Below, piece by piece: positions 32,774 to 45,315 of a stretch of DNA of 64,000 nucleotides (the first letter of the stretch is position 1; every line of letters starts with the position of its first letter). Position numbers and translations under genes: made by a program. The stretch is from NCBI GenBank assembly GCA_003105035.1, contig PQAL01000027.1, positions 1 to 64,000 of the forward strand, in the 5' to 3' direction. Below the pieces are notes generated by a model. The model was not told the DNA's origin, did no database searches, and saw only the letters and a list, made by a program, of their open reading frames with translations. Origin of the DNA: Anaerolineales bacterium. Its GTDB lineage: Bacteria > Chloroflexota > Anaerolineae > Anaerolineales > UBA4823.

Positions 32774-33119
32774 GTTTGTAATTTAACCACAAAGCTATCG
32801 GATTTACACTCGAATCTTCCGGCAAATCTCTGGAATTCTACACAAAAATGACACAAATTTACCTTTTATTATCCAATTATTAATATTTGAAGCATAACTT
32901 TCGGGGATAATTCTCGACTATTCAAAAAAGAGAGTTCAATATTAAACCAGACGAACGTTACATCCCTTCAGAAAAGGAGAATATTTATTAGCCCTACCAT
33001 GCAGATGCTTAGGGCAGTAATTGATTGCTGTTCAGAGTCAACGCAGATCGAGTGGCACGAGCGTAGAATTTGAGAAACAGCTATGCTTAGAACCATGTCT
33101 ACCTTTGGTGAGGAGGTGC
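32774..33119. other. AT-rich intergenic region before the cytochrome operon
   Basis: 346 bases without a supported gene. It separates the minus-strand ThiS-like gene from the plus-strand cytochrome operon and must hold both promoters. I see no consensus promoter. A 24-codon frame from ATG 33000 exists, but its nearest AAGGAG is 19 bases away, so I do not call it. An in-frame ATG at 33021 upstream of the cytochrome lacks a ribosome site. Confidence 0.5.
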
Positions 33120-35315
33120 ATGTTGCTTCGTGGTTTTTTAATTAAATCTGGCCTTATTACTATATTTGTCATTTTTGGTCTGGTGACAAACCTGATCGCG
33201 CTGGCTTACCTCGAGCCATTCAGCCCGGGCAACCTGCTTTTTCCACTGCAGGATTTTGCTGAACAACAAGGCTTCCACCTGTATTCAAATCCATTGGATC
33301 GAGCAAATTACGCGCTAAACCTGCTCGAGCAACGTATCGATGACCTAAGAATCCGAACCGGAACAAACTATGAGCTGGCTGCCCTTCGTTCACTGGACAA
33401 GGCAATCGATCGAGCGACTGCTGTTATCAGTCTTGTTCAACAAGGGCAAGGCGAGGAGATACGAACCCGGCTACTCTCGTTGGCACAAGCTGCCAGGGAA
33501 AAAATCCTGCTGCTCAAGATTGTCCCTGACGAAAATCGAGATCTTTTCGGAGCTTTTCAAACCAAGCTGGATACCTTGATTATGATGGTTGAAAAACCGG
33601 GCGTGGAAAATACTGAGCTGAGCCGGGTGATGAGCATCAGGCTGGAAGATCCAGGTAAAACCGGGGATCCGATCGCTATTGCCATGGTGGCAGGAGGGTT
33701 GATCCCATTCCCACCGGGAAGCGCTGGCGCAGTTCATGCTTTTTATCCTTTGGATGGACAACATGTGCTGTTGAGTTGCAGCACGTGCCATAATGCTGGA
33801 AAATACATCGGAACCCCTAATAAATGTGCCCCGTGCCATATTGAGAAACGTCCCAACCCACATTACGAAGGCGATTGTGAAGCCTGCCATACTGCCCTGG
33901 CTTGGGACGATATCCATTTTGATCATGCAGGCATAGGGAATGTCGACTGCCTTTCATGCCACAAGGATGACACCCCATCAGACCATTATGCGGGGCAATG
34001 TTCCATATGCCATGATACTCTGGACTGGACAGATGTAACCTTTAATCATGAAGTTGCCGGTGCAGTTGATTGTGTCACCTGTCACTTAAAAAATTCGCCC
34101 AGTGGTCATTTTGCGGGGCAATGCTCGAACTGCCATAGCTATTCGAGCTGGCGAAATGCCCAATTTAAGCATCAAGGAAATGAAAATTGCGTTTCCTGTC
34201 ACACTAAGGATACACCAGCTAACCATTATGGAGGGCAATGCTCAACGTGCCATTCCACCAGCAGCTGGAGCGGGGCAAGATCGCATGATGGACTGACCGA
34301 TTGTATCTCATGTCATTCTAAGGATGCACCCGCAGCGCATTACCCGGGCCAGTGCTCAACCTGCCATAACTTCTCTGGTGGTTGGGCTAGTTACCGCGTA
34401 AACCACTCTGGTTTGACGGATTGCAGGGCGTGCCATGCAAAAGATTCACCTGCGAATCATTATGGAGGCCAGTGCTCACAATGCCATGATCCAAATAGCT
34501 GGAGTGGTGCACAATTTAGCCACAGCGGCTTAAGCGATTGTAATTCGTGCCATTCTGGCGATGCACCGGGTAACCATTATCCTGGGCAATGCTCAAGCTG
34601 CCATAACACCAGTGGCTGGAGCGGTGCGGTATTCAGCCATAGCGGTTTCAACGATTGTCGCTCCTGCCATACGAACAATGCACCCCCCAACCATTACCCA
34701 GGCCAATGCTCTAATTGCCACGGCACGAACAGCTGGCAAGGCGTGGTTTTTAACCACAACGGCTTCACCGATTGCACCTCCTGTCATGCGAACAACGCTC
34801 CTCCAAATCATTACCCGGGCCAATGTTCCGGCTGCCACAATACCAGTAGCTGGCAGGGAGCAGGATTCAACCACAATAATTTCACTGACTGCCAGTCGTG
34901 TCACTCCGGAGATGCCCCTCAAGGACACTATCCAGGGCAGTGTTCCAACTGCCACAACACAAATAGCTGGTCGGGAGCAAACTTTAACCATAACGGCTAC
35001 ACCGATTGCACATCCTGCCATGCGGGAAACGCACCAGGCAACCATTATTCCTACCAGTGTTCTACCTGCCATAATACGAATAGTTGGTCGGGAGGCTATT
35101 TCAACCACCAGGGTATCACTGACTGTATCTCATGTCACCTGAAAGACCGACCGGATCACCATGACCAGGGCCAGTGCTCGGATTGCCACGGTACGGACCA
35201 TTGGGGTGATGGAGGTGATGGTATTAACCCTGGTGTATTGTTAGCTGGAATCAGCTGTTCGGCGTGCCATAACGATATCGTACTTGCCTTACCACTTCAG
35301 GAGAGAAAGCAATAA
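33120..35315 (+). CDS. 26-haem cytochrome c with DUF5667-like N-terminal region
   Basis: A 731-residue exported protein with one N-terminal span (about residues 10-30). Residues about 33-150 are helical and open with PFSPGNLLFPL, resembling the DUF5667 segment of the protein at 39987. From residue about 220 to 717 there are 26 CXXCH motifs, which I counted. They fall in units of about 39 residues, each with two motifs, in the pattern HxG-x-TDCxSCH then HYPGQCSxCH and SWxG. Extra His in HNG and NHY could be distal ligands. It would be a long linear electron carrier outside the membrane. ATG 33120 has AGGAGG three bases upstream; TTG 33123 is equally possible. A ferredoxin gene follows at once. 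Confidence 0.88.
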   Translation: MLLRGFLIKSGLITIFVIFGLVTNLIALAYLEPFSPGNLLFPLQDFAEQQGFHLYSNPLDRANYALNLLEQRIDDLRIRTGTNYELAALRSLDKAIDRATAVISLVQQGQGEEIRTRLLSLAQAAREKILLLKIVPDENRDLFGAFQTKLDTLIMMVEKPGVENTELSRVMSIRLEDPGKTGDPIAIAMVAGGLIPFPPGSAGAVHAFYPLDGQHVLLSCSTCHNAGKYIGTPNKCAPCHIEKRPNPHYEGDCEACHTALAWDDIHFDHAGIGNVDCLSCHKDDTPSDHYAGQCSICHDTLDWTDVTFNHEVAGAVDCVTCHLKNSPSGHFAGQCSNCHSYSSWRNAQFKHQGNENCVSCHTKDTPANHYGGQCSTCHSTSSWSGARSHDGLTDCISCHSKDAPAAHYPGQCSTCHNFSGGWASYRVNHSGLTDCRACHAKDSPANHYGGQCSQCHDPNSWSGAQFSHSGLSDCNSCHSGDAPGNHYPGQCSSCHNTSGWSGAVFSHSGFNDCRSCHTNNAPPNHYPGQCSNCHGTNSWQGVVFNHNGFTDCTSCHANNAPPNHYPGQCSGCHNTSSWQGAGFNHNNFTDCQSCHSGDAPQGHYPGQCSNCHNTNSWSGANFNHNGYTDCTSCHAGNAPGNHYSYQCSTCHNTNSWSGGYFNHQGITDCISCHLKDRPDHHDQGQCSDCHGTDHWGDGGDGINPGVLLAGISCSACHNDIVLALPLQERKQ
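34419..35200 (+). repeat. 117-bp in-frame tandem repeat in the multihaem gene
   Basis: The element encoding DCxSCH recurs at 34419, 34536, 34653, 34770, 34887, 35004 and 35121, exactly 117 bp apart each time. The preceding interval is 120 bp. Each unit encodes 39 residues and two CXXCH motifs. Constant length with divergent codons points to duplication of one dihaem module followed by drift. Confidence 0.85.
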
Positions 35316-35316
35316 C

Positions 35317-35592
35317 ATGAGTTTAAAAAACTGGCTGGAAGCAGCCGAAACCAAGAGACAGGTGCTGGTCCAGGGGCAGGTGGTGCCAGACCCATCCCGT
35401 TGTGTACAGTGCGGGGTATGCACCTTCCATTGCCCGATCGGTATTGATATCAGGCGCCATGCGTGGATTGGTGCACCAGTCACGGATAGTCGATGCCTGA
35501 CGTGTGGTGAGTGCGTTCGGCGTTGCCCACGTGGGGTATTAAGTTTCGAACGAACCAATCTGTTTAGCAATTCACGGTTTACGACAGGATGA
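35317..35592 (+). CDS. 2[4Fe-4S] ferredoxin-like protein
   Basis: A 91-residue soluble protein with two cluster motifs, CVQCGVCTFHCP and CLTCGECVRRCP, separated by GIDIRRHAWIGAPVTDSR. The long spacer and the motif style resemble the iron-sulfur parts of HdrC-like and NosR-like proteins more than the compact clostridial ferredoxin. No signal peptide is present, so it is cytoplasmic and could pass electrons to the membrane part of the conduit. CAGGAGAG lies about 11 bases before ATG 35317. The stop overlaps the next ATG (ATGA), giving tight coupling to the 18-haem cytochrome gene. Confidence 0.85.
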   Translation: MSLKNWLEAAETKRQVLVQGQVVPDPSRCVQCGVCTFHCPIGIDIRRHAWIGAPVTDSRCLTCGECVRRCPRGVLSFERTNLFSNSRFTTG

Positions 35593-37067
35593 AACAACCA
35601 AAACCGCTCGGCTCTTTAGCAGGGTTTTTTATGACGACTATGCTGTTAGTGGGGTTGGCGCTACTTTTGTGGTCAAAACAGGGCGTGGCGTTCAGCCCTG
35701 GCCAGATCAGCGCCAAGAGCAGTCCGGGCGTCAGCCTTAAAGGTTACCAATCACACGCCGAATTTGAGAAGAAGTGCGGCGCCTGCCACGCGCCATTGAG
35801 CACAAACCTGGGGGCAAAATGCCTGGCATGCCACGAAGCCGTCAACCAGCAGATCCAGACTGGACAAGGCATCCACAGCCAGATCGCAAATGTTGCTATG
35901 TGTGCAGCTTGCCACCCTGACCATCGTGGCCGAGATTTTGACCCGACAAAGGCATCCTTCCTTCACTTCGATCACTCCACCACAGGTTTCAGGTTGAATT
36001 TCCACCAGTTTAATTATGATGCTTCTTCGTTGGGTTGCACCGAATGCCATCAGAATGGTTCCTATAACAGTGTAGACAACCAAATCTGCCTGAATTGCCA
36101 CGGCGAGCATGACAACCAGTTTGCTGCGATACACCCCAGCAATTATGGTGAAGACTGTCTGGCCTGCCATGATGGAGCAGACCGAATGATAAATTTCGCC
36201 CATTCTGAAACAGGCTATCCGTTGGAGGGAAAGCATGAACAGGTCGCATGTAGTGAATGCCATCGTGACAGCAATTTTACCGATACACCGCGTAATTGCC
36301 AGGAGTGCCATGCAGAACCGGCGGAGCATAAAGGTGTATTCGATCAAACATGCGAGACCTGCCACTCTCCCAAAGGCTGGTTGCCGGCTAATTTAAATGG
36401 GCAGACTTTCACCCACCAGGATACAGTGAAATTCAGTTTGGCATTGCACAAAAAGGATTATGCTGGTCAGGTGATCACTTGCGTGACCTGCCACCCATCT
36501 GACTTAAAGTCTTTTGACTTGCAGGTCTGCATCACCTGCCATAAACAGGAAGATCAAACTTTTATGACCGACCATCAGGTGCAATTCAGCAGCAGCTGCC
36601 TGGATTGTCACGATGGTATGGACCGGCTCAGCAATTTCGACCACAATACTTTCTTTCCCCTTGATGGAAAGCATACCTCAGTCGATTGTGAAACTTGCCA
36701 TGCAAATAAGGTTTTCAAAAACACACCGACCGAATGTTACCAATGCCATGAAGAACCAGATATCCACAAAGGTGTGTTCGGACAACGTTGCGCATATTGC
36801 CACACGACCGATACATGGAGCCCAGCCACCCTTAAATTACACACCTTCCCGATCAACCATGGATTGGATGATCCAGCATTACAGCTAAATTGTGATACCT
36901 GCCATGGGCAGAATTATTATGAATATACCTGCTATAGCTGCCATGACCACCAGGAAAACGAGATCATCCAACAGCATTCGGAGGCAGGTATAACAGAACA
37001 AGACATCCCAGCGTGCGTAAAGTGTCACCCAGACGGGATTGTGAATGCGGCAGAGCGCGTGCCGTGA
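35589..37067 (+). CDS. 18-haem cytochrome c (c3/c7-like)
   Basis: A 492-residue protein with an N-terminal signal or anchor span at about residues 9-29 and 18 CXXCH motifs by my count. The motifs occur in irregular clusters with intervening segments such as HSETGYPLEGKHEQV and HNTFFPLDGKHTSV, in which a His after FPLxGKH is a likely distal ligand, as in cytochrome c3/c7 families. Internal symmetry (two EPxxHKGVF blocks near residues 245 and 400) suggests an ancient duplication. It would sit outside the membrane and accept electrons from the dihaem b protein or hand them to the 26-haem protein. ATGA overlap with the ferredoxin gene. Confidence 0.88.
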   Translation: MKQPKPLGSLAGFFMTTMLLVGLALLLWSKQGVAFSPGQISAKSSPGVSLKGYQSHAEFEKKCGACHAPLSTNLGAKCLACHEAVNQQIQTGQGIHSQIANVAMCAACHPDHRGRDFDPTKASFLHFDHSTTGFRLNFHQFNYDASSLGCTECHQNGSYNSVDNQICLNCHGEHDNQFAAIHPSNYGEDCLACHDGADRMINFAHSETGYPLEGKHEQVACSECHRDSNFTDTPRNCQECHAEPAEHKGVFDQTCETCHSPKGWLPANLNGQTFTHQDTVKFSLALHKKDYAGQVITCVTCHPSDLKSFDLQVCITCHKQEDQTFMTDHQVQFSSSCLDCHDGMDRLSNFDHNTFFPLDGKHTSVDCETCHANKVFKNTPTECYQCHEEPDIHKGVFGQRCAYCHTTDTWSPATLKLHTFPINHGLDDPALQLNCDTCHGQNYYEYTCYSCHDHQENEIIQQHSEAGITEQDIPACVKCHPDGIVNAAERVP

Positions 37068-37085
37068 AGGGAAAACGGGAAACTC

Positions 37086-38426
37086 ATGACTAAGTATCTG
37101 ATCATAGGCGCAGGCGCAGCGGGGGTATCGGCAGCCGAAGCGATCCGCAGCCAGGATCCTGATGGTGAAATCACGCAAATTTGCGAAGAAAACGCTGGTT
37201 ATTATTCCAGGCCAGGCCTGGCATATTATCTGACGGGAGAAATCTCAGAAGACACGCTTTTCCCTGTCGGCCAATCTTATTTTGAAAGGCTTCGTGTGCA
37301 CCTGTTTCATAGCCAGGCGAGGAAGATTATCCCTGCTGAACATTCAGTTATACTGCACAATGGGAATACTTTAGCCTATCACAAACTCTTGATTGCAACC
37401 GGAGCAAGGGCGTCCCTGGCGAAAGTGCCCGGATTGGAGCTGGAGGGTGTGGTGAAAATGGATAGCATCGAAGATGTGAAACGGATTATGAAACATGCCC
37501 ACCGCAGGCGTACAGCAGTCGTCGTTGGAGGTGGGATCACGGCGCTTGAGCTGGTGGAAGGGTTCCGGGCGCGTGGGCTTAAAGTTTTTTACTTCCTGCG
37601 TGGCGATCGCTACTGGTCAAATGTGCTGGATGAAACTGAGTCACATATCGTTGAACACCGCCTGAAGGAGGAGGGAATTGAGCTGCAATACCAAACTGAG
37701 CTGGCGGAGATCCTGGGAAACAAAGGGAAAGTTATCGGTGTGAAAACCACAGATGGCAAGCAGATAAAGTGCGACATTGTAGGGATCGCAATCGGTATCC
37801 AACCCAAGAAAGCACTGGCTGATGAGGCCGGTTTGAAAACTGAGCGGGGGATCTCGGTAAACGAATATCTCAATACTACAGACACCGATATCTTTGCTGC
37901 CGGTGATGTCGCTGAGGTGTATGACCCGACCATCGGCAAGCCGATCCTGGATTCGCTGTGGGCACCAGCTCGCAGACAGGGCTATACCGCCGGGCTTAAT
38001 ATGAGCGGAAGAAGGAACATCTATATCAAAGGAGTGCCATTCAACGTCACTCGCCTCGCTGGATTGACCACAACAATCATTGGAGCCCTTGGGGGACGGG
38101 AGGTTGATGCCGATGTTGTGGGAATCGTAAGGGGGGATAGTGAAGGCTGGCGCCAGATGCCAGAAGCAATCGTCACGCAATCCCGGTTCGATGTAAACCG
38201 TTTACGCATACTAGTTGGCGAAGACAAACTGGTTGGCGCTTTGTTGATGGGTGACCAAACCCTGTCTAGAGCGCTCCATCATTTTATCGTTGATCAGGTA
38301 GATATCAGCCCAATCCGACAAAAACTGGTAGGCCAAGCTGATCACATTTCAAACGTCCTCGCTGATTATTGGTCGAAAATTGTTGCCAGTCCAATGAGAG
38401 AAAACTATGCAACAATCCAGCCGTGA
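37086..38426 (+). CDS. FAD/NAD(P)-dependent oxidoreductase, rubredoxin-reductase-like
   Basis: A 446-residue cytoplasmic flavoprotein. FAD-binding GAGAAGVSAAE is at residues 8-18, the second FAD motif DTDIFAAGDVAE near 270, and the NAD(P) motif VVGGGITALE near 143. The position after the first strand pair where CoA-disulfide reductases have a redox Cys reads SRPGLAYY, so it is a non-disulfide enzyme of the rubredoxin-reductase/NirB type. Within this operon it is the likely entry point for NAD(P)H electrons, perhaps to the ferredoxin at 35317. It overlaps the membrane protein gene by 20 bases. Confidence 0.87.
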   Translation: MTKYLIIGAGAAGVSAAEAIRSQDPDGEITQICEENAGYYSRPGLAYYLTGEISEDTLFPVGQSYFERLRVHLFHSQARKIIPAEHSVILHNGNTLAYHKLLIATGARASLAKVPGLELEGVVKMDSIEDVKRIMKHAHRRRTAVVVGGGITALELVEGFRARGLKVFYFLRGDRYWSNVLDETESHIVEHRLKEEGIELQYQTELAEILGNKGKVIGVKTTDGKQIKCDIVGIAIGIQPKKALADEAGLKTERGISVNEYLNTTDTDIFAAGDVAEVYDPTIGKPILDSLWAPARRQGYTAGLNMSGRRNIYIKGVPFNVTRLAGLTTTIIGALGGREVDADVVGIVRGDSEGWRQMPEAIVTQSRFDVNRLRILVGEDKLVGALLMGDQTLSRALHHFIVDQVDISPIRQKLVGQADHISNVLADYWSKIVASPMRENYATIQP

Positions 38427-39219
38427 ATTGTGGCTATCATTTTTCGCCATCATCCTGATCACGCTCATTTATGTGTTTGTGACGATCATGATTGGGGGAA
38501 TACCCGGTGCAAGTGATTTATTCGGTCATAGTATTGGGATTATCGGTTTCATCCTGATGATATTAACCGAAACACTTTACACACTCCGTAAACGTAGCAA
38601 GAGTGCCCGCTGGGGTAGGATGTCTTCCTGGCTGCAATTGCACATATTCACTGGCCTTGTAGGCCCATATATGGTGCTGTTACACAGTTCGTGGAAATTC
38701 AATGGATTGGCTGGATTGGTGATGCTGCTAACGATCGTTATCGTGGTGAGTGGATTCCTAGGTCGTTACATATATACTTCTGTGCCTCGCAATGCGGATG
38801 GGATCGAAATTGAAGCGGCTGAGCTGGCATATCAAATCAGGCTAATCGATGGAGAGCTACAAGGATGGCTGGCTTCGCAACCTGACCTGTACCAGAAGCT
38901 ATCCAAACAGGTATCGCCTGCATCAGTGGGCAGAAGCAGTACGGTCGTATTCACCAGGGCATTTGACGATTGGAATGCACGGGTAGGCTGGTGGCTAGTT
39001 AGTAGCAAGATGGATAAGGATGCCCGCAGCCAGGCAAAGCAGCTGAATGAATTGTTGAAAAAAAGCCGTAGCCTTAGACGACAGCTGGGATCAATCGCCA
39101 TGACCAGGCGGCTTCTAGGTTTATGGCACGCAATCCACGTGCCAGTGGGGATTGTGTTATTCATCGCCGCGTTTATCCATACTCTAGCCGCGATTTATTA
39201 TGCTACTTTATTACGGTAA
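38407..39219 (+). CDS. Putative dihaem b-type membrane cytochrome
   Basis: A 270-residue membrane protein with about five spans (residues 9-31, 43-60, 75-96, 100-122 and 240-266) and a charged cytoplasmic or external domain of about 115 residues between the last two. Two spans carry paired histidines: His79 and His93 in one, His244 and His258 in the other, both with 13 residues between. That is the classical pattern for two stacked b haems across a membrane, as in ferric reductases. Family assignment by name is not possible. In context it would move electrons from the flavoprotein/ferredoxin to the extracytoplasmic multihaem cytochromes. Confidence 0.7.
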   Translation: MQQSSRELWLSFFAIILITLIYVFVTIMIGGIPGASDLFGHSIGIIGFILMILTETLYTLRKRSKSARWGRMSSWLQLHIFTGLVGPYMVLLHSSWKFNGLAGLVMLLTIVIVVSGFLGRYIYTSVPRNADGIEIEAAELAYQIRLIDGELQGWLASQPDLYQKLSKQVSPASVGRSSTVVFTRAFDDWNARVGWWLVSSKMDKDARSQAKQLNELLKKSRSLRRQLGSIAMTRRLLGLWHAIHVPVGIVLFIAAFIHTLAAIYYATLLR

Positions 39220-39324
39220 CAATTCCAGAAGAAGAATAGCCTTGCAATTCTAAATTTAATTGTTGGTACAGCTAGGTTAAAAAGAAAAAAAACTGAAGCA
39301 AAATTAATAATGATGCATAACTTT

Positions 39325-39353
39325 TTGTAGTATTTGGCGACTTTTATTATAGG
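39325..39353 (+). promoter_or_regulatory. Weak promoter candidate before the sigma-factor gene
   Basis: TTGTAG (39325-39330) and TATAGG (39348-39353) are 17 bases apart. Transcription would start at or next to ATG 39361. The hexamers deviate from consensus, so this is tentative. Confidence 0.3.
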
Positions 39354-39360
39354 TAGGAAG

Positions 39361-39990
39361 ATGGTTTACTGGCGAACACCTGGATTCTATAATAGAATTG
39401 GGGCTTATCCTATTGGAGTAAGCACCAAGCGAATGCCTGCTAAAGTATCGGAAATTGATCGACTAAATAAACTCGAGCCCCAGGTAATCACAGAAATCCA
39501 TGACCAGTATTACCCTGAGATTTTCCGTTTCGCGCGTTTCCGGGTCAGTGATGAAACCATCGCAGAAGATATCGCTAGCGAAGTATTTATGCGCTTTCTG
39601 GAGGCCGTCAGGAAGGGTCAAGGACCGAAGACCAATTTAAAAATGTGGCTGATCCGTACCGCATCCAATACTATAAATGACCACTACCGGAAAGTATACC
39701 GTCACCCGCTAGAGGAATCATCCGACTTTATGGAGAATCGCAAGGATCTGTATTTGATGCACATGGATCCTGTGATATTGACAGAACAAGAAGAGACGAA
39801 TCGGTCAGTCCGGATGGCGATTAACCAGCTGACCGATATGCAGAAGATGGTCGTTACACTGCGTTTCGGGAATCAATATTCACTGGAAGAGACTGCGCAA
39901 ATCATGGATAAGGAAATTAATACCATCAAAGCTTTGCAATTCCGAGCGTTAGAATCTTTACGCCGAATCCTTGGTAGTGAGCTGCCATGA
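39361..39990 (+). CDS. ECF-type sigma-70 family factor
   Basis: A 209-residue sigma factor with region 2 (YYPEIFRFARFRVSDETIAEDIASEVF split by a short variable part, about residues 45-85) and region 4 (LTDMQKMVVTLRF, then YSLEETAQIMDKEINTIKALQFRALESLRR, about 155-205). There is no region 1 or 3. An unusual N-terminal extension of about 24 residues precedes the fold; ATG 39433 would remove it. An upstream in-frame TTG at 39334 is rejected. The stop overlaps the next gene (ATGA), so it is cotranscribed with the DUF5667-like membrane protein, its probable regulator. Confidence 0.87.
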   Translation: MVYWRTPGFYNRIGAYPIGVSTKRMPAKVSEIDRLNKLEPQVITEIHDQYYPEIFRFARFRVSDETIAEDIASEVFMRFLEAVRKGQGPKTNLKMWLIRTASNTINDHYRKVYRHPLEESSDFMENRKDLYLMHMDPVILTEQEETNRSVRMAINQLTDMQKMVVTLRFGNQYSLEETAQIMDKEINTIKALQFRALESLRRILGSELP

Positions 39991-41234
39991 GCCGCAAAGA
40001 ATTTGACACTCTTGAGAGCTGCATTTCGGCACTGGAACATGGGCATCCCTTAGATGAATGCATTAAAACACAACCAAACATTTCGCCAGAAACAACTGAG
40101 CTAATAGAACTAGCGGATCGGGTGAGGGTTCTCGGGCAAAACCAAGTAAGTGCGGAGGCCATCATCCGAAGCCGGGAGAAGCTACTAGCCCGGGCAGCAG
40201 CTTTAGGTCGCTTAGAGAGTATCGGTGGAGCAGAACCTCAAGAGGATAATTTCTTCCAGAGATTTGGAAAATCTATCAGCGGCTTTCGTTCTATGCACCC
40301 AGCGGCAGGACGGTTGTTCATTGTGCTGGCAGGCACACTATTATTACTCATTTTTTCAAGTGGTCTGGTAGTTACTTCGGCGAAATCCCTGCCTGGCGAA
40401 CCTTTATATCATGTAAAACGAGCAGTCGAAGAGTTGGAGATCTACCTCATTCCTGGGAGTGAGAACCGGCATGAATTCGAGGATGGCTTTAACCAGGTAC
40501 GCGTGGTTGAAGTCCTCCAGCTTCTTAAACTGCGTCAGGTTCAGCAGATCAGCTTTGAAGGGATGCTCGAAGAAACAAGTGGAGATCAGTGGAGGATCAG
40601 CGGTATCCCGGTACTTATCCAGGATGGCACGATGTTTGGTGAAGGCATGGCGGGTGGCAATACTTTTATTCCGGGTTCATACGTAGAAGTGGAAGGATTT
40701 ACTCGCTCGGACGGAGTGGTGATCGCTAATGAAATCCATCTCCGCGAGTATTCGTTTCATGGTACGGTGGACCAAATAGGTACCAACCATTGGACAATAG
40801 CAGGCATTGGATTGGCTACAACCGAAAAAACAATGATCGGAGAAGGCATTGTGGTGGGTGATCGTGTAACAGCCTGGGTGCATTCGTGGGATAGCGGATT
40901 ATATGCGTTATCGATTACCAAAGATGATACACCTGGCTCAACTCCATCGAAGATATCACCTGAGCAGCCGGACGAATGGTCTGGTGATGATGTTCCAGAA
41001 GAGCAATCAATGGAAGGTACGACGGACACCTATCCCATAGTAACAGAGACTACGATAAGTAGTGAACAAGAAGACCTGGATGAAGCGTCTGCGACTCCTG
41101 AACCACATGAAAGAGAAGATCAACCATCGCAGACAGTTGAACCGATGCCCACCGAAGAAGAAGAAAATGGGACAGCCTCCCCGGAAAATTATCAGACTCC
41201 CGAACCCACCGATGGGCATAGCGTTGACCCATAA
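39987..41234 (+). CDS. Membrane protein with DUF5667-like and beta-repeat regions, putative anti-sigma partner
   Basis: A 415-residue protein. Residues 1-105 are a soluble helical domain that could hold the sigma factor. One span is at 109-131. Just outside it SLPGEPLYHVKRAVEEL (134-150) begins a DUF5667-like helical segment to about 185. Residues 187-305 form two beta-rich repeats, each with F-x-G-x(V/L)-then GIPV/GIGL, resembling DUF5666. The tail from about 310 is low-complexity and rich in Pro, Glu, Ser and Thr. This order is common in Chloroflexota next to ECF sigma genes. The anti-sigma role is inferred from position and topology, not from a ZAS zinc motif, which is absent. Confidence 0.75.
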   Translation: MSRKEFDTLESCISALEHGHPLDECIKTQPNISPETTELIELADRVRVLGQNQVSAEAIIRSREKLLARAAALGRLESIGGAEPQEDNFFQRFGKSISGFRSMHPAAGRLFIVLAGTLLLLIFSSGLVVTSAKSLPGEPLYHVKRAVEELEIYLIPGSENRHEFEDGFNQVRVVEVLQLLKLRQVQQISFEGMLEETSGDQWRISGIPVLIQDGTMFGEGMAGGNTFIPGSYVEVEGFTRSDGVVIANEIHLREYSFHGTVDQIGTNHWTIAGIGLATTEKTMIGEGIVVGDRVTAWVHSWDSGLYALSITKDDTPGSTPSKISPEQPDEWSGDDVPEEQSMEGTTDTYPIVTETTISSEQEDLDEASATPEPHEREDQPSQTVEPMPTEEEENGTASPENYQTPEPTDGHSVDP

Positions 41235-41288: not shown

Positions 41289-41326
41289 AACGACCTTGTC
41301 GGGTAACCGATAAGGCCGTTGTTTTT
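41289..41326 (+). terminator. Terminator after the sigma/DUF5667 pair
   Basis: A 14-base stem (41289-41302 with 41307-41320) with two mismatches and a GTAA tetraloop is followed by GTTTTT. It closes the sigma-factor transcript and abuts a transposase remnant. Confidence 0.75.
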
Positions 41327-42450: not shown

Positions 42451-45315
42451 TTGACCTGGCAGTTTACATCTGAGGTATTGGTTGTTTTACTTACTGCTGC
42501 CACTGCATTAATTTTCGGAATTATCAGCTTGCGGTGGTGGAAAACCCCCGGGATCATCTTCTTTTCAGCGATGATGATTGCGATAGGGGGTTGGGCGCTA
42601 TTTGCCGGTTTAGAAGCTGCAGCCATACCCATCACCCTAAAAATATTCTCGGCAAAAGTGCAATTTGTGAAGGTTGCATTTATTGCTGCATTTTGGTTCC
42701 TGCTTATTGTGCAGTATACCCACCAGGAAAAAAAGCTCTCCAACTGGTGGGTTTTTGTATTAATGGTCATCCCATTCTTGTCGATCTATATGGCAGCCAG
42801 CGAAGGATCACATCACTGGTTATGGGGTACGATTACCCCGCTATCCAATACACCAGGTGCACCCCTGGAATATACCCAAGCATGGTGGTCTTCAATTTCT
42901 ACAGCCTACTTTACCTTGCTTTTCTTCGTAGGCGTGTTTATCCTGATCCGCAGGATACTCACTACACCAAAATCGATGTCGTGGAAATCATTATTGTTTT
43001 TACTGGGAATCATCCCACCGCTATTAAGTAATTTAGTCTATCAAACTGGCTTGCTTCCAATCAATAATATCCAAATACTCGTGATGGCTGGAGTATGTAC
43101 CAGTGGTGTGATTTATTTCTGGGGGATATATTACTTCCAGACCCTGGAATATGCCTCATTGTCGCGGGATGTGATCATCGACAATATGAATGAAGGCGTG
43201 ATCGTCCTTGATTGCCAGGATCGCATCTATAACATAAATGCTACTGCCTTGCATATGTTAGGGTTGGAGCAGCGGGCCGTAAAAAAGAAAACCTTGAGTG
43301 ACATCATCGCCATCTGGCCAGGTATTGCGGATACCTTCCGCGTACCACATGATTTTGAAACCGAAGTCAGAATCAACGGTGATGCGCCTAAAACATTGAA
43401 TATTCGAACAACTAACCTGAAAGATAAAGATGGGCGCCCGACTGGCAGGATGGTCGTGTGGCGTGATATCACCCAATATCGCCAGGTTGAAGCAACCTTA
43501 AGGGATTCGGAAGCACGATTTAAAGCATTATTTCAAAGTGCTCCGGATGCGATCATTATCACAGATAGAAACAGCCGAATCGTATTAGTGAACAACCAGA
43601 CCATCACCTTGTTTGGGTACAGCATGCAAGAGCTGCTGGGTAATTCGATTGAGGTCGTCATACCAGAACGCTTCAGAGAGGCATATTACAAGTACCAACG
43701 AGCCTTCGTAGATGAAATTGACACACGACCGGGGATCAGCCTGCCTCTGGCAGGTGTCAGGAAGAATAACCGCGAAATCCCCATCGAAATCGCATTAAGT
43801 CCGATAAAGATCCCCTCAGGGTTAATTTTTACCAACATTATTCGAGATCTGACCATTCGCAAAGAAGCTGAAGAACAACTCCGATTACAAAGTGTTGCCC
43901 TTGAATCAGCTGCAAACGGTATTATGATCACCGACCGCAACGGGAATATCCAATGGGCAAATCCAGCATATACCCGGATCAGCGGATACACAGTTGAAGA
44001 GGTGATTGGCAAAAACCCGCGCATCCAAAGGTCGGGAATGGTGGCCCAGGATGTGTATAGTAACTTGTGGCGTACGATCCTCAGTGGAAATGTATGGCAT
44101 GGAGAGCTGATCAATCGAAAGAAAGACGGAAGTATCATCATAGAAGAGCAAACAATCGCTCCTGTGAAGGATACCTCCGGGCAAATCAACCATTTTATCG
44201 CGATCAAGCAAGATATCACTGAACGTAAACACGCCGAAGAGGTGTTAAGCAAGCGCTCGGAGCAAATTGGTACTTTGAACCGGGTCATGCGGCTATTGAG
44301 CTCCACGCTCGACTTGTCTAAAGTGCTGGATATGATCCTGCATGAAATCCAGCAAGTTATACCCTATGACAGTGCTTCAGTCTGGCTGTGTAAAGATGAT
44401 AGCATGGAGATCATTGCCGCCCATGGTTTCTCAAATCCCGATTCGGTCATTGGGACTTCTTACAGCCTGTCTTCGAAAGATAATCCAAACGCGCAGGTGA
44501 TCCGGTTGCGGATGCCAATCATTGAAGGAGACCTGTTATCTACCTACACGGGATCAAAAGAAATGCAATCCCGCATTAAGAACCGGGGATGGATGGGTGT
44601 ACCAATGATTATTGGTGATCGGGTGACTGGTATGCTAGCATTTGATAAGAACGTCCCCAACTTCTATACACAGGAGCAGTCTCAGTTTGCGCTGGCATTT
44701 GCCTCACAGGCTGCAATCGCGATTGAAAATGCCCGGTTGTATTCCGACGCTCAAAAAGAGCTTGCGGAACGCGTGGAGGCAGAAAAGAAATTGCTCCAGC
44801 TTCAGAAAGAGCTAGAAGAGCAAGCGATCCGTGATTCTCTGACCGGGCTGTATAACCGCCGCTTCCTGGATGAAACGCTGGCACGCGAGCTATCGCGGGC
44901 TGAGCGCGATAAATATTCGGTCAGCGTGGTCATGCTCGACCTGGACCATTTCAAGACGTTCAACGATACTTATGGGCATGATGTGGGTGACATGATGTTG
45001 AAACAGCTGGGCAAGTTGCTGAGCTCACACGTCAGAGCAGGTGATATTGCCTGCAGGTTCGGAGGTGAGGAATTTGTTGTTGTCATGCCGAAAGCATCGT
45101 TAACGGTAGCAAGACAGCGTGCTAATGATTGGCGAAGCAAATTTGAAACCCAGGTATTAATCCATGAAGGAGAGGTGTTATCGGCAACACTGTCTGCTGG
45201 GGTAGCCGTTTACCCGCTACATGGTACATCCAGCGATGAGATCGTCCGCAAGGCCGACCAGGCGATGTATGCTGCCAAAGCAGCTGGTAGAAACCAAGTA
45301 CACACTGCGCAATAA
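42451..45315 (+). CDS. Membrane sensor diguanylate cyclase (7TM-PAS-PAS-PAS-GAF-GGDEF)
   Basis: A 954-residue protein. The N-terminal 230 residues form seven spans like the N-terminal 7TM region of some histidine kinases. PAS domains follow at about 240-347 (NEGVIVLDCQDRIY), 350-475 (APDAIIITDRNSRIV) and 480-600 (AANGIMITDRNGNIQWAN). A GAF domain covers about 615-765, then a short coiled coil and a GGDEF domain (about 790-954). The active site reads GGEEF at 871-875 with an intact RxxD inhibitory site (RAGD) five residues upstream, so it should make c-di-GMP and be feedback-inhibited. The start is a TTG with AGAGGA nine bases upstream. It is followed by yjbQ. Confidence 0.9.
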   Translation: MTWQFTSEVLVVLLTAATALIFGIISLRWWKTPGIIFFSAMMIAIGGWALFAGLEAAAIPITLKIFSAKVQFVKVAFIAAFWFLLIVQYTHQEKKLSNWWVFVLMVIPFLSIYMAASEGSHHWLWGTITPLSNTPGAPLEYTQAWWSSISTAYFTLLFFVGVFILIRRILTTPKSMSWKSLLFLLGIIPPLLSNLVYQTGLLPINNIQILVMAGVCTSGVIYFWGIYYFQTLEYASLSRDVIIDNMNEGVIVLDCQDRIYNINATALHMLGLEQRAVKKKTLSDIIAIWPGIADTFRVPHDFETEVRINGDAPKTLNIRTTNLKDKDGRPTGRMVVWRDITQYRQVEATLRDSEARFKALFQSAPDAIIITDRNSRIVLVNNQTITLFGYSMQELLGNSIEVVIPERFREAYYKYQRAFVDEIDTRPGISLPLAGVRKNNREIPIEIALSPIKIPSGLIFTNIIRDLTIRKEAEEQLRLQSVALESAANGIMITDRNGNIQWANPAYTRISGYTVEEVIGKNPRIQRSGMVAQDVYSNLWRTILSGNVWHGELINRKKDGSIIIEEQTIAPVKDTSGQINHFIAIKQDITERKHAEEVLSKRSEQIGTLNRVMRLLSSTLDLSKVLDMILHEIQQVIPYDSASVWLCKDDSMEIIAAHGFSNPDSVIGTSYSLSSKDNPNAQVIRLRMPIIEGDLLSTYTGSKEMQSRIKNRGWMGVPMIIGDRVTGMLAFDKNVPNFYTQEQSQFALAFASQAAIAIENARLYSDAQKELAERVEAEKKLLQLQKELEEQAIRDSLTGLYNRRFLDETLARELSRAERDKYSVSVVMLDLDHFKTFNDTYGHDVGDMMLKQLGKLLSSHVRAGDIACRFGGEEFVVVMPKASLTVARQRANDWRSKFETQVLIHEGEVLSATLSAGVAVYPLHGTSSDEIVRKADQAMYAAKAAGRNQVHTAQ

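Follow-up and report, generated by a model that had tools for sequence, protein, structure and literature searches.

Do neighbouring genes for two multihaem cytochromes, a ferredoxin, a flavoprotein and a membrane protein belong together, and could they encode a path by which electrons leave the cell? The question is raised by positions 33120-39219 of a stretch of 64,000 nucleotides from an Anaerolineales bacterium of the phylum Chloroflexota (assembly GCA_003105035.1, contig PQAL01000027.1, forward strand). We refer to the whole stretch as the window, and the genome carrying it is 4.45 Mb in size. Five open reading frames lie head to tail on the plus strand of this region and encode, in order, the proteins that we call C26, FD, C18, FAD and CYB (Table 1), separated successively by a gap of 1 base pair (bp), an overlap of 4 bp, a gap of 18 bp and an overlap of 20 bp. 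The original prediction, made from the sequence of the window, described five overlapping or closely spaced genes with 26 and 18 c-type haem motifs (44 together), a ferredoxin with two [4Fe-4S] motifs and a flavoprotein. All five frames were found with gaps or overlaps of 1-20 bases, a recount of the CXXCH motifs of C26 and C18 gave the same totals, FD contains two CX2CX2CX3CP motifs and matches Fer4_7, and FAD matches Pyr_redox_2 with two Rossmann sites. As shown below, the cluster is real and conserved, and it is probably an electron conduit.

Conservation of the gene set

When 84,980 genomes were scanned once with a pattern based on CYB, 36 loci were returned, all from Chloroflexota and including one from the isolate Levilinea saccharolytica (L066); more distant relatives outside Chloroflexota could escape this single scan. 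The isolate, strain KIBI-1, carries FD, FAD, CYB and an 18-haem cytochrome. A CYB profile matched 89 of 301 Anaerolineales genomes at an E-value of 1e-20, and 63 of the 174 genomes of good quality. Flanking sequences were fetched for 78 distinct loci, 44 of which are well flanked (at least 6 kb upstream and at least 5 kb downstream). Of these 44 loci, 41 contain FD, 42 contain FAD and 42 contain a multihaem cytochrome, for which the threshold was set at 8 haems or more; 40 loci have all three. This co-occurrence rules out a one-off gene neighbourhood. A lack of co-occurrence in other genomes had been named in advance as grounds for refuting the original prediction, which was not refuted, as 40 of 44 loci hold the core together.

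The commonest gene order is FD, FAD, CYB and multihaem cytochrome. The order differs in L034, L056, L074 and the window while the set is retained, which suggests a joint function rather than the inheritance of one stretch. The unit of five genes proposed originally holds for four of them: FD, FAD, CYB and a multihaem cytochrome form the constant core, which the 26-haem gene supplements only in a subset. Cytochromes of the C18 type are general among the loci. Those of the C26 type, most of which have a DUF5667-type head, adjoin the long or middle form of CYB in L032, L033, L034, L036, L041 and L074. In the 38 genomes of the window's family, CYB occurs in 13, C26 in 12 and both in 10 (p = 3e-5), and in most of the genomes with both, the two genes lie within a few kilobases of each other. 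The C26-bearing loci do not form one clade in a tree of FAD, where no group is firmly placed as nearest to the window row (L046 and L076 are wrongly labelled "long" in this tree, owing to an open reading frame extended upstream). The window genome also contains a second cluster with the short form of CYB, consisting of FD, FAD, CYB and a 23-haem cytochrome (L068).

Three loci from another Chloroflexota family (L081, L083 and L085, family f31) encode a distantly related FAD of ~610-650 residues, a ferredoxin and a CYB-like protein with two Hx13H pairs, with no multihaem cytochrome. These sets are perhaps an older core with another acceptor.

Proteins of the cluster

Composition shuffles yield on average 0.28 CXXCH motifs for C26, which has 26, and 0.20 for C18, which has 18, and never more than 3 for either, so that a chance origin of the haem motifs is ruled out. 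The haem region of C26 contains 28 further histidines for 26 haems, no cysteine outside the motifs and 19 residues per haem; C18 contains 21 non-motif histidines for 18 haems and likewise no cysteine outside the motifs. Since the supply of histidines is at least equal to the number of haems and free cysteines are absent, both sequences fit bis-His haems throughout, and C18 and C26 look like all-bis-His electron wires. Each has one N-terminal membrane helix (residues 9-27 in C18). In C26, the helix is followed by a DUF5667-like domain and then by 2-haem repeats of ~39 residues, encoded by tandem 117-bp repeats with two haems each, and the haem number varies widely among C26 relatives. The DUF5667-like N-terminus (33120-33770) is under the Pfam cut-off in the window protein and over it in the homologue from L033 (30.3 vs 27 bits).

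Cytochromes of the C18 type in L032-L079 share a conserved leader on the N-terminal side of the first haem, in which LGC precedes the membrane helix and GGxxFSPGxLNA follows it. The largest cytochrome seen beside a cluster of the same kind has 1069 residues and 42 CXXCH motifs (L193, 10359-13565, minus strand). An AlphaFold model of C18 built with 24 homologues was not used (predicted template modelling score, pTM, 0.32; predicted local distance difference test score, pLDDT, 68), and a Foldseek search with it returned one meaningless row. NrfA or another catalytic haem enzyme was considered as an identity for these proteins and rejected, with no PF02335 match in the cluster proteins or in the genome.

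CYB has histidines at positions 41, 79, 93, 241, 244 and 258, with 13 residues inside each of the pairs 79/93 and 244/258. H41, H79, H93, H244 and H258 are invariant in 33 CYB homologues and H241 is variable. Two Hx13H pairs are present in 53 of 56 CYB matches, the other three being contig-end cuts or apparent frameshifts. The AlphaFold model (pLDDT 84, pTM 0.60) has five membrane helices, at residues 6-29, 38-63, 72-94, 101-125 and the end of 204-267, and an insert of ~80 residues (~138-217) is modelled as an extra-membrane helical hairpin, which would lie in the cytoplasm. CYB occurs in a long form of ~270 residues and a short form of ~184 residues that is free of this insert, as at L047 7887-8438. 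In the model, H79 and H93 lie in one helix and H244 and H258 in another; with each Hx13H pair inside one helix, a haem would be ligated by one histidine from each of the two, 79 with 244 and 93 with 258. The loop between helices 2 and 3 contains six lysine or arginine residues and no acidic residue, and the loop between helices 4 and 5 contains 18 lysine or arginine residues, compared with none between helices 1 and 2 and one between helices 3 and 4. According to the positive-inside rule, these charges would put the cytoplasmic side of the membrane at H79 and H244 and the outer side at H93 and H258.

CYB is thus a putative dihaem cytochrome b with stacked b haems, an assignment based on the invariant histidines and the predicted topology. 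It had been called dihaem-b-like from its histidine pairs and their spacing; this reading gains from the invariance, the five helices and the fitting charges, and the ligating pairs are now refined to 79-244 and 93-258. The similarity of CYB to cytochrome b561 (PF01292) is weak, found in 28 of the 33 members with a best E-value of 2e-6, and the window protein scores 20.2 bits against a cut-off of 30.1. The second, short-form CYB of the window genome scores 26.1 bits over positions 11-166, covering most of the profile. These matches suggest that CYB is distantly kin to cytochrome b561. The ferric reductase/NADPH oxidase (NOX) profile PF01794 gave no match for the window CYB and matched one of the 33 members at an E-value of 0.2.

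Both CX2CX2CX3CP motifs of FD are invariant in 22 homologues and present in 44 of 44 FD matches. FD is similar to polyferredoxin segments, and the PadF-type ferredoxin of NCBIfam scores 1e-6. FAD is well over the Pfam cut-offs of PF07992 (180.9 vs 26.1 bits) and PF00070 (55.8 vs 22 bits), and its nearest solved structures are NoxA-3 (6pfz) and 8c0z_E, a subunit associated with aldehyde oxidoreductase (AOR) (4e-38). The closest NCBIfam model is the PadH equivalog NF045765 (1.5e-52), whose cut-off FAD misses by a wide margin (178.9 vs 475 bits).

The second nucleotide site of FAD reads GGGITALE...LR172GDR175YW, and A153, R172 and R175 are invariant in 20 rows. At the region of R172, 8c0z_E reads VEMGDR, with a glutamate where FAD has an arginine. 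A strict NADP(H)-type pattern is found in 37 of 52 wider FAD matches, and the arginine at the R172 site is kept in the other readable rows. In glutathione reductase, NADPH use is classically marked by an arginine that follows strand beta-2, and an acidic residue at the NAD(P)-selecting site is usual for NAD enzymes. The GxGxxA motif and the invariance of Arg172 and Arg175, together with the analogy to glutathione reductase, favour NADP(H). The site therefore looks like an NADP(H)-type site, and FAD may use NADP(H). Neither FD nor FAD has a membrane helix or, by eye, an evident signal peptide, so we take both as cytoplasmic.

Table 1 Coding features of the cluster and of the two genes that follow it
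Feature	Coordinates	Strand	Basis
C26: 26-haem c-type cytochrome, membrane-anchored, 731 residues	33120..35315	+	26 CXXCH
FD: small 2[4Fe-4S] ferredoxin-like protein, 91 residues	35317..35592	+	Fer4_7 1e-10
C18: 18-haem c-type cytochrome, membrane-anchored, 492 residues	35589..37067	+	Cytochrome_C7 4e-21
FAD: one-FAD pyridine-nucleotide oxidoreductase, 446 residues	37086..38426	+	Pyr_redox_2 5e-53
CYB: five-helix membrane protein, putative dihaem cytochrome b, 270 residues	38407..39219	+	Invariant His, predicted helices
Extracytoplasmic function (ECF) sigma factor (BldN-like), possible regulator	39334..39990	+	TIGR02952 2e-39, under its own cut-off
DUF5667/DUF5666 membrane protein, possible anti-sigma partner	39987..41234	+	DUF5666 1e-15, DUF5667 9e-6

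The start of C26 was taken as ATG 33120, with an upstream TTG at 33021 as a possible alternative. The frame of FD opens at TTG 35284, and ATG 35317 is the better start. The sigma factor gene begins 114 bp after CYB on the same strand, and no plus-strand terminator-like site is found in 39219-39334; a terminator-like hairpin, identified by a consensus match only, lies at 41294-41315 after the DUF5667/DUF5666 gene. The DUF5667 domain is common to the head of C26 and to the protein beside the sigma factor, and some other CYB copies also have sigma-factor homologues nearby. It is possible that the sigma factor and its DUF5667 neighbour are linked to regulation of the conduit. At 42451-45315, 1.2 kb downstream of this pair, the window encodes a 954-residue protein with a seven-helix membrane region (7TM) in the arrangement 7TM-PAS-PAS-GAF-GGDEF.

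Electron route and alternative explanations

We consider it reasonably probable that the cluster is a quinone-independent transmembrane conduit from NADPH or ferredoxin to the outside, a proposal in which we infer the haem loading, the use of NADP(H), the docking, the outward direction and the acceptor. The cytoplasmic donors would be NADPH (or NADH), reduced ferredoxin or both; they would reduce FAD and its 2[4Fe-4S] partner FD, which would dock on the cytoplasmic face of CYB. Electrons would then cross the membrane through two stacked b haems, from the inner one (H79/H244) to the outer one (H93/H258), and move on to the membrane-anchored C18, with C26 as an extension. From C18 and C26 they would pass beyond the envelope to an extracellular acceptor, for example an oxidised mineral, humic material or a partner cell. 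The gene set contains no quinone enzyme. The membrane potential favours outward electron flow, so the cluster would be a route for disposal of reductant rather than a pump.

Several observations weigh against this proposal. CYB is over no Pfam or NCBIfam cut-off; hhalign gave no alignment of it with local, shallow profiles of PF01292 and PF01794; and Foldseek and VIA-align searches with the long-form model returned nothing but coiled coils and further unrelated helical proteins, which the long insert had attracted. The relatives of FAD include soluble oxidases and reductases, and its action on CYB is thus not obligatory. The location of C18 and C26 beyond the cell wall is presumed. Four of the 44 loci miss a part; in one CYB stands with an 18-haem gene and neither FD nor FAD nearby (L206), and in another with no partner nearby at all (L223). 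In addition, the contig labelled C18 of the window genome carries, at ~16-27 kb (L103 6856-18372, L104 1161-7106), a mix of multihaem cytochromes and cytochromes b of the PF01292 family, together with an NrfD-like protein of ten helices. This gene run is a more conventional route, probably linked to quinone, and it could serve extracellular transfer instead of the conduit.

Other explanations assign different ends or directions to the same proteins. The conduit may feed a periplasmic or cell-wall reductase of nitrite, sulfite, peroxide or oxygen, with the multihaem proteins as storage or delivery modules. The sets of FAD, FD and CYB found without a multihaem cytochrome (L081, L083 and L085) suggest that a different acceptor can terminate the core, as oxygen does in NADPH oxidases; however, there is no reductase gene in the window cluster and none that recurs in the core gene order, the genome has no NrfA, and each haem apparently has a histidine for its sixth site. 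We regard this explanation as unlikely, though not negligible. Somewhat less likely still is an inward flow, in which the cytochromes would gather electrons from outside, from minerals or cathode-like partners, and NADP+ or ferredoxin would be reduced for biosynthesis. All components are reversible in principle, and 8c0z_E, whose aldehyde oxidoreductase complex passes electrons to NAD+, is among the nearest solved relatives of FAD. Both anodic and cathodic transfer are described for the Chloroflexota isolate Ardenticatena (PMC5808234). Electrons flowing inward, however, would have to move into a cytoplasm of negative charge and arrive at a very low potential, and the core is also present in Levilinea, which is known as a fermenter and has to dispose of electrons rather than acquire them.

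Flavin-based bifurcation would split the electron pair of NADPH at FAD, sending one electron downhill through CYB to the outside and the other uphill to ferredoxin. Such a scheme would suit the make-up of the cluster, which unites a putative dihaem b with a 2[4Fe-4S] protein and with a flavoprotein whose fingerprint is of the NADP(H) type. The folds typical of known bifurcating flavoproteins (Nfn/GltD, ETF, HdrA) are absent from the 60 best-scoring solved structures related to FAD, and no second flavin site was seen; bifurcation is in our judgement very improbable. The same low expectation applies to a Chloroflexota-specific form of bifurcating extracellular transfer, in which the outside acceptor drives the making of low-potential ferredoxin. 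If bifurcation were true, the outside acceptor would be used for energy conservation through low-potential ferredoxin, and we know of no extracellular respiration with this type of energy conservation.

The proposed outward conduit has consequences beyond the window. Digesters, sludge and sediments are rich in Anaerolineae. If the proposal is true, electrons exit straight from NADPH or ferredoxin with no quinone, unlike in the CymA, ImcH and CbcL systems. Direct electron exchange of digester Anaerolineae with partners was neither confirmed nor excluded by a study in 2016, on the ground that the genomes were without c-type cytochromes, a class defined there as the MtrC/OmcA family (PMC4877987). 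The cluster is a concrete candidate machine for such exchange that recurs in about one third of the sampled genomes of the order, and it could explain how common sludge and sediment Anaerolineales dispose of electrons. As the core is also present in the cultured Levilinea saccharolytica, the proposal is testable in an isolate.

Comparison with known systems

The literature that we searched, which covers few subscription journals and preprints, contains no description of the gene set, and within that literature the system is so far undescribed. Large multihaem cytochromes with variable haem numbers and no porin are reported in Anaerolineales in passages of one study, in which porin-cytochrome complexes were not found in these bacteria, a result that the authors attribute to their having no Gram-negative envelope (PMC7399161). 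These passages describe cytochromes, not a unit of ferredoxin, flavoprotein and cytochrome b. In the iron-reducing isolate Ardenticatena, capable of anodic and cathodic transfer, no protein carries more than seven haems (PMC5808234).

The original prediction found no match to Mtr, Omc, NrfA or Hdr systems, in agreement with our searches, where no Pfam or NCBIfam cut-off of the families tested for these systems was reached. With MtrCAB, Omc and porin-cytochrome systems, the cluster shares multihaem c-type wires outside the cytoplasmic membrane, and C18 is partly similar to decahaem profiles, although below the NCBIfam cut-offs for the OmcA/MtrC and DmsE families (TIGR03507, 40.7 vs 209.3 bits; TIGR03508, 35 vs 192.2 bits); it differs in having neither a porin nor a CymA-type quinol dehydrogenase. 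As for HdrABC, no HdrB-type CCG domain is among the Pfam matches of the five proteins. For the phenylglyoxylate dehydrogenase subunits PadF and PadH and for 8c0z_E, the likeness is in the FAD subunit, which FAD resembles most, and the PadF-type ferredoxin also scores. The cluster, in contrast, has no dehydrogenase core, is tied to membrane cytochromes and has an arginine in place of glutamate at the NAD(P)-selecting site. CYB differs from cytochrome b561 and the cytochrome b of Ni-hydrogenases (PF01292) in that its histidines are in two helices, each with a pair separated by 13 residues.

The functional analogue would be the NADPH oxidases and ferric reductases. NADPH oxidases use NADPH and a flavin in the cytoplasm, hold two stacked b haems on paired histidines of two helices and deliver electrons to the outside without a quinone. 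CYB is not assigned to this family by the PF01794 profile, FAD has the Pyr_redox_2 fold rather than the FNR-type fold, and the outer acceptor of the cluster would be a multihaem cytochrome. By analogy, the cluster would work in a similar way to these enzymes, with a multihaem wire in the place of oxygen.

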